A stretch of 41,244 bases of DNA, taken from NCBI GenBank assembly GCA_007130605.1, contig SLSF01000038.1, positions 1-41,244 of the forward strand, written 5' to 3'. The translations under genes and the position numbers were made by a program. A model generated the notes under the pieces. The model made no database searches. It was given only the letters and a program-made list of their open reading frames with translations, and was not told the DNA's origin. Below, piece after piece: positions 19,151 through 35,830 of this stretch (positions are counted from its first letter, which is position 1; each line of letters begins with the position of its first letter). The stretch is from Gemmatimonadota bacterium. GTDB taxonomy: Bacteria > Gemmatimonadota > Gemmatimonadetes > Longimicrobiales > Gaopeijiaceae.

Positions 19151-19411
19151 TCAGTCCTGCTTGAGGTCGTTCACCCGCTTGTGGAGCTGCGCCTTCAGGC
19201 GGGCGACCTTGTTGGGATGGAAGAGGTTCTTCCGCGCCGCCCGGTCCAGGAGCGAGGAGACCTCGCGCAGCCGTGCCTCCGCCGTCTCGAAGTCGTCGGC
19301 GGCCCGCACCCGCTTCATTCCCGTGCGGATCCGCGAACGGGCCACCCGGTTCTTCGCCTGCCACTTCCGGCCCAGCTCCATCCGCTTCTGCGCCCTCTTG
19401 ATATTCGGCAT
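19151..19411 (-). CDS. rpsT: 30S ribosomal protein S20
   Basis: This 86-aa, Lys/Arg-rich protein binds 16S rRNA in the small subunit. MPNIKRAQKRMELG is the usual S20 N-terminus, and AARKNLFHPNKVARLKAQLHKRVN is the conserved C-terminal helix. The frame is open 18 codons further upstream (to 19465), but ATG 19411 gives the family start and lies about 50 nt downstream of a near-consensus promoter. It is monocistronic and convergent with pyrC. It is flanked upstream by the 74-bp-phased palindrome array. Confidence 0.95.
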   Translation of the reverse strand: MPNIKRAQKRMELGRKWQAKNRVARSRIRTGMKRVRAADDFETAEARLREVSSLLDRAARKNLFHPNKVARLKAQLHKRVNDLKQD

Positions 19412-19468: not shown

Positions 19469-19497
19469 AATATAGGGGCAGTGGGGGGGCGGATCAA
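19469..19497 (-). promoter_or_regulatory. Promoter of rpsT
   Basis: On the minus strand, TTGATC (complement of 19492-19497) and TATATT (complement of 19469-19474) are separated by exactly 17 bp of C-rich sequence. Transcription would begin near 19462, giving a leader of about 50 nt before the rpsT ATG. Confidence 0.7.
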
Positions 19498-19570
19498 TGG
19501 ACGGGGGTTGGGCTCTCGCGATTCGGGTGGGTGGAGGTTGCAGATCAAGCCTCTCTCCGTTGCCGAAACG

Positions 19571-19586
19571 GTAGCGTATACGCTAC
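19571..19586. repeat. Palindrome GTAGCG-TATA-CGCTAC (array copy 1)
   Basis: This is a perfect 16-bp palindrome, the first of three GTAGCG-N4-CGCTAC elements spaced exactly 74 bp start to start. It is followed by AA, giving an extended right end CGCTACAA. It lies upstream of the rpsT promoter and in the gap before the site-2 protease gene. It looks like an operator for a dimeric DNA-binding protein. Confidence 0.85.
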
Positions 19587-19644
19587 AACCATCGCTGAAC
19601 GTCGATTCCGATAGGTCGGAGGCTGGGGTGAGCGACCGGGGACT

Positions 19645-19660
19645 GTAGCGTTTACGCTAC
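19645..19660. repeat. Palindrome GTAGCG-TTTA-CGCTAC (array copy 2)
   Basis: Both 6-bp arms are identical to copy 1 and only the central four bases differ (TTTA). It starts 74 bp after copy 1. The 29 bp before it share about 17 identities with the 29 bp before copy 3, so the array may derive from an old 74-bp duplication. Confidence 0.85.
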
Positions 19661-19718
19661 CAGGGTCCGCAGGATCCCGTGCCCATGAGCCGGAGGTGGG
19701 GACGCGCGATGTGAGGTT

Positions 19719-19734
19719 GTAGCGTTTTCGCTAC
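19719..19734. repeat. Palindrome GTAGCG-TTTT-CGCTAC (array copy 3)
   Basis: This third copy has identical arms and centre TTTT, and starts 74 bp after copy 2. It lies 121 bp before the site-2 protease ATG. 74 bp is close to seven turns of B-DNA, so proteins bound at all three would face the same side of the helix. Confidence 0.85.
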
Positions 19735-19855
19735 ATCGTGCACGCCCGGAGGCCGACCCCCGCGGCCAAGGCACCGGCAGGCCATCGAAGCAGGAGGGTC
19801 GCCCCTCGCCCCTCGGGGTGGTCCACCCCGGCGCCATCGGGTAGCTTCATCGACC

Positions 19856-20515
19856 ATGATCTGGATACTCCTGATACCCATCCTCCTCCTCTCCATCGTG
19901 GTTCACGAGGTGGCCCACGCCTGGGTGGCGCGGAGAGAGGGGGACGACACGGCGGACCGCCTCGGGCGGATCACCCTGAACCCCATCCCCCACCTGGATC
20001 CGGTGGGATCGCTTCTGGTGCCCGCCATCCTCATTGCGCTCCCGGGGAGCTTCATCTTCGGATGGGCCCGTCCGGTCCCGGTGAACCCGGCCAACTTCCG
20101 CGACCCGGTGGGTGGCGACATCCGGGTCACCCTGGCCGGCCCCGCCTCGAACCTGGTCCTGGCCCTCGCCTTCACCCTCCTCATGGTGCCGGCGGCAGCC
20201 ATGGCCGGAGGGGTCGAGGCCGCCATGGATCCGGAGCGGGGAAGCCTCTTCGTGACGGCGTGCTTCTATGGCATCCTCATCAATCTGATCCTGGCCATCT
20301 TCAACATGATCCCGGTCCCTCCCCTCGACGGATCGCATGTCCTCCGGCACCTCCTCCCCCAGGGGATCCGGAAGGCGTACGACTCGGTGGGCCGCATCGG
20401 GATCCTCGTCCTCCTGGGCTTCCTCTTCCTGGTGCCGCAGGGATTCCAGATCATCATGGCGCCGGTCCTCTTCCTGGCGGGGGTCCTCATATCCCTCGTC
20501 GAACTCCTGGTCTGA
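19856..20515 (+). CDS. Site-2 protease family metallopeptidase (M50B)
   Basis: This 219-aa intramembrane zinc protease has HEVAH (H17, E18, H21) in its first TM helix and the second metal motif NMIPVPPLDGSH (N150 to D158) in a later helix. About five to six TM segments are visible. This compact form, without PDZ or CBS domains, is common directly upstream of scpA in bacteria. Substrates are unknown; family members cleave anti-sigma factors or membrane remnants. Its stop is separated from the scpA ATG by two bases, so it heads a tight operon with scpA, scpB and an RluB-type gene. The phased palindrome array lies just upstream and may control this operon. Confidence 0.9.
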   Translation: MIWILLIPILLLSIVVHEVAHAWVARREGDDTADRLGRITLNPIPHLDPVGSLLVPAILIALPGSFIFGWARPVPVNPANFRDPVGGDIRVTLAGPASNLVLALAFTLLMVPAAAMAGGVEAAMDPERGSLFVTACFYGILINLILAIFNMIPVPPLDGSHVLRHLLPQGIRKAYDSVGRIGILVLLGFLFLVPQGFQIIMAPVLFLAGVLISLVELLV

Positions 20516-20517
20516 CG

Positions 20518-21474
20518 ATGGCGCGCTCCGGTACCGTGGAGGGGGAGAGAGGAGGCGGCTTCCTGGTGGAGATCGATCGCTTCCGGGGACCCCTCGACCT
20601 CCTCCTGCACCTGATCCGCCAGCAGGACATCGACATCTTCGACATCCCCATCCGGCGCATCACCGATCAGTTCCTGGGGGCCGTGGAGGGGATCCGAGCC
20701 GCCGACCTGGATTCGGCGGGAGAGTTCCTGGAGATGGCGGCCACCCTCATCCGGATCAAGGCCCAGATGCTCCTCCCCCGTCCAGAGAGCGACGACGACG
20801 AGGATCCCCGGGCCGAGCTGGTGCGCCGACTCCTGGAGTACGAGCAGGTCCGGGAGATCACCCAGCGGATGGAGCGGGCCGAGGCGGAGCGATCCCGTCG
20901 CTTCACCCGGGGCTTCGTCGAGCCCCGTCCTCGCCCCGCCGTCGACGACGTTCCCCTGGAGACCACCTGGGACGAGGTCTTCGGCGCCGCCCTCGACGTC
21001 ACCCTTCCCGTGGTGGTCGACGACACCCACCGGGTGACGCCCCGCACCGTCTCGATGGATGACAAGGCCGCGCTGATCCTGGACCGCCTCGAGACGGAGC
21101 ATGGCCTGGAGTTCCGGACCCTCCTGGCCCCCTTCGCCCATGGGGACCCCGAGTTCCGGATGCATGGGGTCATGACCCTTCTGGCCGGGCTCGAGCTCAC
21201 CCGCAGGCGCCGGATCCACCTCCGGCAGTCGGCGCCCTTCCATGAGCTCTGGATCTACCGGTGGGAGGGGCCCGAGCCCGACGACGGCATGGCCGAGGGC
21301 GCCCTCCCCGACACCCTCGGACCCGACCACGGCCTCCCAGCCGACGCCACTGCCGACGATCTCGAGCCCAGCGACCCCATCCCCGCCAAGCCCGCGTGGG
21401 ACGACTCCGAGCCCGACAAGACCATCCCCGACCCCCCCATCCGTTCCCGCAACGACCCCCCGGGAGAGCCATGA
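20518..21474 (+). CDS. scpA: Segregation and condensation protein A (kleisin)
   Basis: This 318-aa kleisin joins SMC and ScpB in chromosome condensation. The N-terminal signature FLVEIDRFRGPLDLLLHLIR is followed by DIFDIPIRRITDQF and EFLEMAATLIRIKAQMLLP, the SMC-neck-binding helices. A winged-helix-like C-terminal region includes VMTLLAGLELTRRRRI. The last 65 or so residues are Asp/Pro-rich and low-complexity, longer than usual. The ATG at 20518 lies 2 bp after the protease stop; the longer open frame upstream is a shadow. The stop overlaps the scpB start (ATGA). Confidence 0.94.
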   Translation: MARSGTVEGERGGGFLVEIDRFRGPLDLLLHLIRQQDIDIFDIPIRRITDQFLGAVEGIRAADLDSAGEFLEMAATLIRIKAQMLLPRPESDDDEDPRAELVRRLLEYEQVREITQRMERAEAERSRRFTRGFVEPRPRPAVDDVPLETTWDEVFGAALDVTLPVVVDDTHRVTPRTVSMDDKAALILDRLETEHGLEFRTLLAPFAHGDPEFRMHGVMTLLAGLELTRRRRIHLRQSAPFHELWIYRWEGPEPDDGMAEGALPDTLGPDHGLPADATADDLEPSDPIPAKPAWDDSEPDKTIPDPPIRSRNDPPGEP

Positions 21475-22091
21475 ACGCCGAGCAGATCGTGGAAGCGGTC
21501 CTCTTCGCCAGCGACGCCCCCCTCCGCCCCGACGAGATCGCCCGCGCCGACGAGTCCCTCGACGAGGACCGGGTGGAGGTGGCCCTCGAGTGGCTGCGGC
21601 GGCACTACCTGGAGTCGGACCGGGCCTTCGACCTGGTGGAGATCGCCGAGGGGTACCAGCTCCAGACCCGCCCGGAGTATGCCCCCTACCTGGAGCGCTT
21701 CGACACCGTGCCGAAGCCGTCGCGCCTCTCGGGCCCCGCGCTGGAGACCCTGGCCATCATCGCCTACCGACAGCCCCTGGGGCGCCTCGAGGTGGAGTAC
21801 ATCCGGGGGGTGGGATCGTCGGGGGTCATCCGGACCCTGGTGGATCGGGGACTCATCGAGGTGGTGGGGCGGGGCGAGGGACTCGGGCGCCCCCTCCTTT
21901 ACGGCACAACCCTCCGCTTCCTGGAGCACTTCGGCTTCCGGTCCATGGAGGACCTCCCGCGGCCGGAGGAGCTTCCCATCGTCCTCCGCGACCGGAACTC
22001 CCCCATCCTTCCGGAGGACGAAGAAGACGGGAACGGGAACGCCCCGGACCAGGAGGAACTCGAGCTGGAGGACGCCGATGGCGAAGGATAG
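21471..22091 (+). CDS. scpB: Segregation and condensation protein B
   Basis: This 206-aa protein has two winged-helix domains and dimerises on ScpA. Family signatures include EQIVEAVLFASDAPL at the start, PSRLSGPALETLAIIAYRQPL, then EVEYIRGVGSSGVIRTLVDRGLIEVVGR and YGTTLRFLEHFGF. The acidic C-terminal tail is a common feature. The start overlaps scpA by 4 bases and the end overlaps the pseudouridine synthase start by 14 bases, consistent with a single coupled mRNA. Confidence 0.95.
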   Translation: MNAEQIVEAVLFASDAPLRPDEIARADESLDEDRVEVALEWLRRHYLESDRAFDLVEIAEGYQLQTRPEYAPYLERFDTVPKPSRLSGPALETLAIIAYRQPLGRLEVEYIRGVGSSGVIRTLVDRGLIEVVGRGEGLGRPLLYGTTLRFLEHFGFRSMEDLPRPEELPIVLRDRNSPILPEDEEDGNGNAPDQEELELEDADGEG

Positions 22092-34181: not shown

Positions 34182-34321
34182 GGGTGAAATATAGTCCTTT
34201 CCGGACTTCCGGCCCACCGTGTGGCGGATCCGGGCCCCGTTCCAGGACTTTCCGTTCATGGGGTCGGCGCCTGGAGGGACGAAGCGAACCCTGTCTCCAC
34301 ACAGGTCGACTCGTTTCTCAA

Positions 34322-34394
34322 CGCTTGCGCTCAGCGTCATCGCATAGACCGCAAAGTCCACAACCGACGATTCTCGCAAGCGACGGTTGTGGAC
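34322..34394. repeat. Interleaved inverted repeats (pseudoknot-like)
   Basis: CGCTTGCG (34322-34329) is complementary to CGCAAGCG (34375-34382), and GTCCACAACCG (34356-34366) to CGGTTGTGGAC (34384-34394). The order is A-B-A'-B', with A' inside the loop of B, as in an H-type pseudoknot. The 11-bp stem continues as CAA/TTG after a one-base bulge. Confidence 0.7.
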
Positions 34395-34596
34395 CTTGTT
34401 CCTATATGGAGCGTTTCGGTGCCCACGTCGTGCGAGTCCCCCACGAGTGTGGAGTCCTGGTTCGGATGTCGGGCTTTGGCCCCCGCCGGGTCCATCCCGC
34501 CCGCCATGAGGGGTCCGGGCCGGGTGGGATGGAACCCTGTCCTCGGGAGGAAGCCTTCCGCCCGCCATCGCCCGATCCGGATTCTATGCGAATATC

Positions 34597-34649
34597 GACG
34601 AAAATCCTGCAAACGCCTTCGAAGGCGCGGCGTTTTCAGGATTTTCGTC
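34597..34649. repeat. 21-bp near-perfect inverted repeat with nested palindrome
   Basis: 34597-34617 and 34629-34649 are reverse complements at 20 of 21 positions (arms begin GACGAAAATCCTG). The centre contains the perfect 14-bp palindrome CGCCTTCGAAGGCG (34614-34627), giving two alternative folds. There is no terminator-like T-run beyond TTTTCGTCC. Confidence 0.8.
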
Positions 34650-34852
34650 CTGCGAACCCGACGCCCCTGCCCTTCCCACTCGGCCCGGAACCGTCACTCG
34701 AAACGAGAAGGACTGGGAGGGAACCGGCCCTGTCCCGGTCCCACTCCGGGATCGAGCTTCCGCGGTTGGAGCCCCGACGTGAACGCCGCATCCACATCGA
34801 ACGGGAAGAAAGCGCGCAAGCGCTACACTCGGAGGGAGGGATGAAGGTGATC

Positions 34853-34868
34853 GTGGCGTAAACGCTAC
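34853..34868. repeat. Distant copy of the GTAGCG palindrome
   Basis: GTGGCG-TAAA-CGCTAC differs from the 19.6-kb array consensus by one base in the left arm. It is 57 bp before the EamA transporter ATG. A half-site CGCTAC with a degraded left arm lies at 34811-34826, 42 bp away (four helical turns). Confidence 0.65.
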
Positions 34869-34924
34869 AGCCAGGGTGGCCCCGGGGATTCCCTTCAGCG
34901 TCGAGACCGTCAGATTGGGAGACC

Positions 34925-35830
34925 ATGACCCCCACGCCCCCACCCTCGGAATCGCCCCCCATCCCCCCGGCCCTCGCCCTCGGCGTGGCCATCGTGGCAT
35001 TCTCGTGGGCGGGTCCCCTGGTCCGCTTCACCGATGCGCCGGCACTCGCCGTCGCCCTCTGGCGCCTCCTCTTCTCGGTGGCCTTCCTGGCACTGGTCGT
35101 CACCCTCCGCCGCGAGGGTTGGCGTCCCCTCGCCCGCCTCTCGGGCCGGGACTGGTTCCTGGCCGCCGGTGCGGGCATCCTTCTCGCCTTCCACTTCTGG
35201 AGCTGGATCGCTTCGATCCAGTTCACCTCGGTGGCATCGTCGGTGATCCTGGTATCGACGCAGCCCCTCTTCGTCGCCCTCCTTTCGGCCCTCCTCCTCA
35301 AGGAGCACCCGGTGCGCGGGGAGTGGGTGGGGATGGGGGTGGCGGTGGCAGGAGCGGCGTGGATCGGATGGGGTGACGCGGGGCACGGTTCCCGGGCCCT
35401 CCTGGGGGATGCCATGGCGGTGGGCGCCGCCGTCCTGGCTGCCGCATACTACATCGTGGGACGGGCGCTCCGGAGACGGGTGGACCTCTGGAGCTATGTG
35501 ACGGTGGTGTATGGCGCCGCGGCCCTCACCCTCCTCCTCCTGGCGGGAGGCCACCCCGGGGTCCCCCTGGTGCGGGGATACGGGGCCACCGACTGGTGGG
35601 TCTTCCTGGCCCTGGCGGCAGGCCCCATGATGCTGGGACACACGGGGGTCAATTACGCCCTCCGCTACACCCGCGCCTACCTGGCGAATCTGGCGGTCCT
35701 GGGTGAACCCATCGGCGCGACCCTCATCGCCTGGCTCCTCCCGGCCATCGCCGAGCGTCCCGACATGACCACCGTGGTGGGAGGTGGGCTGATCCTGGTC
35801 GGTGTGGCCATCGCGCTTCGGGCGCGCTGA
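34925..35830 (+). CDS. EamA/DMT-family transporter
   Basis: This 301-aa protein has ten predicted TM helices arranged as two EamA repeats (about 19-145 and 155-299). The first repeat includes AIVAFSWAGPLVRFTDAPALAVALWR and the second AGPMMLGHTGVNYALRYTRAYLANLAVLGEPIGA, with a conserved Glu-Pro near the last helices. DMT exporters move amino acids, metabolites or nucleotide-sugar-like compounds; the substrate is not predictable. The first 15 residues are Pro/Ser-rich. The gene stands alone, preceded by the distant GTAGCG palindrome and followed by 19-bp tandem repeats. Confidence 0.92.
   Translation: MTPTPPPSESPPIPPALALGVAIVAFSWAGPLVRFTDAPALAVALWRLLFSVAFLALVVTLRREGWRPLARLSGRDWFLAAGAGILLAFHFWSWIASIQFTSVASSVILVSTQPLFVALLSALLLKEHPVRGEWVGMGVAVAGAAWIGWGDAGHGSRALLGDAMAVGAAVLAAAYYIVGRALRRRVDLWSYVTVVYGAAALTLLLLAGGHPGVPLVRGYGATDWWVFLALAAGPMMLGHTGVNYALRYTRAYLANLAVLGEPIGATLIAWLLPAIAERPDMTTVVGGGLILVGVAIALRAR

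Follow-up and report, generated by a model that had tools for sequence, protein, structure and literature searches.

Three palindromes with the same arms, set at an exact 74-bp step in the gap between a ribosomal protein gene and a protease gene, raise the question of what kind of sequence they are and what might recognize them. They lie in the window, as we call the whole 41,244-nucleotide stretch of Gemmatimonadota DNA analyzed here. An initial annotation had read them as dimer-type operator half-sites with fixed arms and free centers, helically phased and resembling operators of XRE/HigA-type antitoxins, and had reported a fourth copy in front of an EamA transporter gene. Re-examination gave three exact GTAGCG-N4-CGCTAC sites at 19571, 19645 and 19719, with a step of 74 bp and the centers TATA, TTTA and TTTT, and Pfam assigned to the genes around both loci the identities given earlier (ribosomal protein S20, peptidase M50, ScpA, ScpB and EamA). 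The features of the first locus are as follows.

19151 to 19411, minus strand: rpsT, ribosomal protein S20 (Pfam PF01649)
19469 to 19497, minus strand: rpsT promoter, sigma-70-like, TTGATC-17-TATATT (direct reading of the sequence)
19565 to 19777, no strand: mosaic repeat, a stretch resembling other intergenic regions of the same genome
19571 to 19586, no strand: palindromic site 1 (GTAGCGTATACGCTAC), exact match
19587 to 19644, no strand: 58-bp spacer of the 74-bp unit, resembling the spacers of other arrays
19645 to 19660, no strand: palindromic site 2 (GTAGCGTTTACGCTAC), exact match
19661 to 19718, no strand: 58-bp spacer of the second 74-bp unit, more diverged
19719 to 19734, no strand: palindromic site 3 (GTAGCGTTTTCGCTAC), exact match
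19856 to 20515, plus strand: site-2 protease, peptidase M50 (Pfam PF02163)
20566 to 22091, plus strand: scpA and scpB (Pfam PF02616 and PF04079)

The whole-genome search that the initial annotation had proposed was carried out on the 3.0 Mb assembly (342 contigs, 93% complete) and returned 101 exact GTAGCG-N4-CGCTAC sites, compared with one for a reversed-pattern control. Every one of them was retrieved, in 55 stretches that total 536 kb with the window; there they form 56 clusters, the window array being one of them, and several contigs start or stop within the repeats. When up to two mismatches were allowed, 50 of the 56 clusters held two to five sites and the other six held one; at the same tolerance the window contains nine matches against 0.78 expected, a number reached in none of 100 shuffles. 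As judged with a simple purpose-made gene caller that missed some genes, 54 of the 56 clusters lie outside called genes, and such a dispersed extragenic palindrome in high copy has the hallmark of REP elements. The sequence around the sites is itself repetitive: 46 of the 255 intergenic regions of the fetched stretches belong to one similarity network, and seven further regions share a back-to-back type of array. Three modules could be distinguished, namely the palindrome arrays (module A), a 53-bp self-complementary repeat (module B) and a hairpin-rich repeat (module C). Dispersed copies are 91-97% identical over 178-453 bp, and a 501-base query spanning modules A and B matched 42 places in the genome. 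The palindromic units are thus interspersed with other conserved modules, as in BIMEs, and since both spacers and flanks are mosaics of repeats we regard the family as BIME/REP-like. Open reading frames within the elements, searched for a hidden gene, gave no Pfam match among those tested. Elsewhere in the genome, a 679-aa open frame (L029, 6322-8358; G000:C123, 11321-13360) ends 25 bp before an array; it has no Pfam match and was passed over by codon-usage gene calling. A gene for a DUF222 protein (L044, G000:C228, 7295-8575) is located 461 bp past a triplet of back-to-back sites.

The same mosaic organization accounts for the fourth copy. A site with one mismatch is indeed present at 34853, yet it is not a lone operator, since it sits at one end of a mosaic-repeat stretch. 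Two such stretches (34202-34479 and 34515-34877) make up this second locus, and the element from 34202 to 34877 consists of module C, module B and one module A site.

34202 to 34545, no strand: module C, a dispersed repeat rich in hairpins; both same-genus genomes (G001 and G002) have similar copies
34597 to 34649, no strand: module B, self-complementary 53-bp repeat
34853 to 34868, no strand: one-mismatch site (GTGGCGTAAACGCTAC), close to where the second mosaic stretch ends
34925 to 35830, plus strand: EamA transporter (Pfam PF00892)

The position of the clusters relative to genes was also analyzed. Among the 42 clusters with two called neighbors, 17 lie between convergent, 19 between tandem and 6 between divergent genes. 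The convergent class was in excess both over array-free gaps of at least 60 bp (20/184, P = 2e-5), drawn from the array-bearing stretches rather than from a random genome sample, and over all adjacent gene pairs (59/400, P = 1e-4). Furthermore, of 61 neighbors whose 3' end faces a cluster, 23 are no more than 25 bp away from it, compared with none of 35 whose 5' end faces it (P = 8e-6, two in-gene clusters left out), and the stop codons of nine genes are TAG triplets supplied by the GTAG of a site. This preference for convergent and unidirectional gene ends, with TAG stops contributed by the repeat, is also found for GTAG-REPs, according to excerpts of PMC3733652. Of the 97 immediate neighbors listed, 95 were scanned against Pfam, three of the scans showing 25 families of 27, of 39 and of 47; among the matches listed, the neighbors have mixed core functions, few of which recur (S20, L21, L31, tyrosyl-tRNA synthetase, DNA ligase, RNase E/G and others). 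An all-against-all comparison of the flanking proteins produced groups of no more than four.

These observations bear directly on the proposal that the sites are promoter operators of a single regulator with a large regulon, for example an XRE/HigA-type antitoxin. Dimer-type half-sites and helical phasing would suit an operator, and the window array, which belongs to the divergent minority, does lie between two gene starts; the lower share of divergent gaps was also not significant by itself (6/42 vs 47/184, P = 0.16). Against this stand the frequent placement between convergent genes, the absence of any start-facing neighbor within 25 bp and the mixed core functions of the scanned neighbors. 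Even in the window, 73 bp separate the rpsT promoter from the array, and G001 and G002 have a similar promoter sequence with no array in the corresponding gap. A search of the genome gave a single HTH_3 match, compared with six in each same-genus genome, and no match to the ParE toxin family PF05016, the toxin family searched. An antitoxin or toxin gene adjacent to the sites (toxins sought as PF05016 only) together with a promoter position was not found, and we consider the operator reading, including its antitoxin version, very improbable.

A second line of evidence came from the distances between sites. The clusters provided 91 consecutive spacings of up to 130 bp between sites with at most one mismatch, distributed as follows.

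16-17 bp: 11
30-31 bp: 5
40-44 bp: 44
52 bp: 2
61-65 bp: 5
72-74 bp: 20
79 bp: 1
85 bp: 2
128 bp: 1

Save for the back-to-back units at 16-17 bp, these values form a ladder with steps of about 10.5 bp, and the helical phasing first noticed in the window array therefore holds across the genome. Of 80 spacings longer than 20 bp, 79 differed by no more than 2 bp from a multiple of 10.5, compared with 42% of all integers between 25 and 130, and the strongest period in the 6-20 bp range was 10.6-10.7 (R = 0.876). The period persisted once similar spacers had been merged into 27 groups and was matched by none of 5000 random sets. About half of these groups are 42-bp-like, however, and when each distinct spacing was counted once the ladder reached only P = 0.098, so a few lengths used repeatedly carry it. 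The commonest spacer families could be descendants of one 42-bp and one 74-bp ancestor. Conversely, among the 44 spacings of 40-44 bp there are 15 whose spacers stay apart from the main group (cutoff, the 99.9% level of shuffled spacers), and one 64-bp and one 65-bp unit cluster with the 74-bp family, as if about one turn had been lost; these unlinked spacers and shortened units speak for constraint over mere descent. When compared with one reference spacer, 28 of 50 spacers scored 2 or less, a figure with no null behind it. The back-to-back units (11 of the 91 spacings), at 1.5 turns, do not conform to a strict one-face arrangement.

Regular steps between 16-bp palindromes also recall partition sites. 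Excerpts of PMC9178275 describe the parS site of the F plasmid (sopC) as dimer-bound 16-bp inverted repeats at 43-bp steps, and the arrays could be dispersed, centromere-like sites of this type for a partition protein. Besides this shared geometry, a canonical parS near parB has one of the arrays at a distance of 100 bp. The only match to PF02195, the one partition family searched, nevertheless has two exact canonical parS sites within 2.3 kb, and its HTH stretch is almost the same as in its relatives. Because canonical parS sites are present and the HTH stretch is nearly unchanged, binding of the arrays by ParB is unlikely and was set aside, and a parS-type role as a whole appears extremely improbable. 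At this locus near parB (L167, G000:C259; 2793-2901, 3001 and 4234), the array has four sites at 31-bp steps, 100 bp from the exact canonical parS, and lies beside a gene for a MerR/B12-binding regulator, upstream of the single ParB match.

Conservation within the unit was examined next to the spacing. The half-site consensus is T-GTAGCG-T-W around an A/T-rich center. In the 153 sites of multi-site clusters there are 70 half-site changes, 45 of which are A3>G and give GTRG ends; both arms are changed in five sites, and the changes match each other in two. In aligned long copies (11 of 14), 257 of 264 arm cells (97%) equal the consensus, compared with 660 of 853 spacer cells (77%) and 73 of 88 center cells, although the value for the arms is inflated because most copies were collected via their exact sites. 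Fixed arms around free centers, as described for the window array by the initial annotation, are supported genome-wide.

Inverted repeats at gene 3' ends may also act as RNA, and the sites could be hairpins or terminators at the ends of transcripts. By direct reading, each could form a stem of 6-7 bp with a 4-base loop, and longer stretches fold better than shuffles, partly owing to the palindromes themselves. In an alignment of 21 units of 74 bp, however, the arm stems show no compensatory changes; the one pair with compensatory cells in the RNAalifold structure lies outside the arm stems. Variants that tolerate a G.U pair show no clear bias toward the transcribed strand (10 with, 5 against), no T run follows the sites in arrays inspected by eye, and helical spacing would be pointless for RNA. 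At the gathering threshold, the Rfam matches in the window and at four array loci were all tRNAs. With its stems uncompensated, the RNA model was set aside as quite improbable. Since changes in one arm are not compensated in the other, the constraint on the arms looks like that of a duplex site bound by a putative dimeric protein rather than that of a hairpin.

The family was absent from the relatives searched. Neither same-genus genome has an exact site, and among 38 relatives seven genomes beyond this pair have one to eight sites, compared with zero to eight for the reversed control. The 501-base A+B query matched nothing in 18 relatives, nor did module B in the same number searched. Module C gave 13 matches in G002 and three in G001 but none in 16 other relatives; because similar copies occur in all three genus genomes examined, module C looks older than the palindrome arrays. 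Comparison by eye with the congeners, which are too diverged for the purpose, yielded no exact insertion boundary or target duplication. Among 395 genomes sampled from the phylum, a pair of exact sites at a distance of 42-72 bp occurs only in the genome under study. A wider search of 84,980 species genomes, from which records of the present genome or a very close one may be missing, found 11 stretches with a pair 44-74 bp apart; seven carry Bacteroidetes lineages in their titles, and no spacing ladder emerges among the 11. These stretches of unrelated genomes (L082-L092) have the same GTAGCG/CGCTAC arms in mostly GC-rich flanks, one of them (L087) with six copies at 32-bp steps. A 659-base element found no match in plasmid and phage records, and viral contigs contributed one stretch with a pair, in which the flanks differ. 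An analogue with other arms was sought in 520 kb of the approximately 3.5 Mb of G002, where no clustered palindrome family with 6-base arms was found. The family is therefore species-specific within the genomes covered.

Another explanation is a purely selfish, REP/REPIN-like miniature element, in which the palindrome is the hairpin recognized by a single-strand transposase, the arrays are dimers and clusters that transposition left over and the spacing stems from a few founder units. The GTRG palindrome ends, the siting behind genes with TAG stops taken from the sites, the high identity among dispersed copies and a ladder unproven at one vote per distinct spacing all fit this explanation. It sits less well with the transposase search, as the Y1 (RAYT) family PF01797, present in one of 11 genomes searched, was not found in the 93%-complete genome itself. 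According to excerpts of PMC3733652, GTAG-REPs by definition carry their GTAG as an unpaired tag on one end of the stem-loop, whereas here GTAG pairs with CTAC within each unit, at both ends. The uncompensated arm stems, and arms and spacing that are kept while spacers decay, likewise argue against it. Overall, we consider a purely selfish origin unlikely, though the likeliest of the alternatives.

On balance, the arrays probably represent a species-specific, dispersed, BIME-like mosaic family whose unit is a duplex site of a putative homodimeric protein, set in whole-turn arrays behind genes. The unit T-GTAGCG-TW/WA-CGCTAC-A would be the double-stranded recognition site, TGTAGCGTAAACGCTACA being the sequence predicted to be bound. 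Units stand mostly in arrays of two to five, whole helical turns apart, a spacing that would place neighboring dimers on one face of the DNA and make cooperative binding possible; both binding and cooperativity are what we infer from arms and phase, while the family itself, its spacing, position and arm conservation, and its absence from the relatives searched, were observed directly. The arrays lie mostly behind genes and not at promoters, and they might have spread by duplication via a putative enzyme, which is a guess. Equally speculative, by analogy with REP/BIME repeats, is that bound arrays at gene 3' ends act on DNA topology, read-through or nucleoid folding. It is conceivable, though doubtful, that a recently spread repeat has become, or carries, a genome-wide system of helically phased, dimer-binding arrays behind genes that would serve chromosomal architecture or gene-end insulation with its own putative DNA-binding protein, in one species and in none of its congeners. 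It has long been asked whether REP and BIME repeats are parasites that spread or are retained because they serve a function. In this family the spacers have decayed while half-sites and whole-turn spacing largely have not, which points to selection on the bound structure, and the combination of phase, arms and a single species offers a clean handle for testing such selection.

Compared with known repeats, the family is new and species-specific, an analogue of the broad BIME/REP class and perhaps one of its members; REP and BIME repeats bind proteins according to excerpts of PMC2817692. Among the matches listed in open-licence literature, no description of the motif itself or of helically phased REP arrays was found. 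Like the GTAG-REPs and BIMEs described in excerpts of PMC3733652, the units are short extragenic palindromes with GTRG ends, present in many copies, clustered and species-specific, and they lie behind genes and between convergent genes within mosaic repeats. Unlike them, they hold GTAG inside the stem at both ends, have a spacing that tracks the helical repeat and lack compensatory arm changes, and no Y1 transposase was found with them. REPINs (PMC3116915, in excerpts) are likewise dispersed palindromic units joined by a spacer, whereas the unit here is 16-18 bp long and itself palindromic, with no associated transposase found. The F plasmid parS likewise consists of 16-bp inverted repeats, with steps of 43 bp there (PMC9178275, in excerpts) and of 42-43 bp here, but the present repeats form 56 dispersed clusters with several step lengths, and the sole ParB found is encoded near canonical parS sites.
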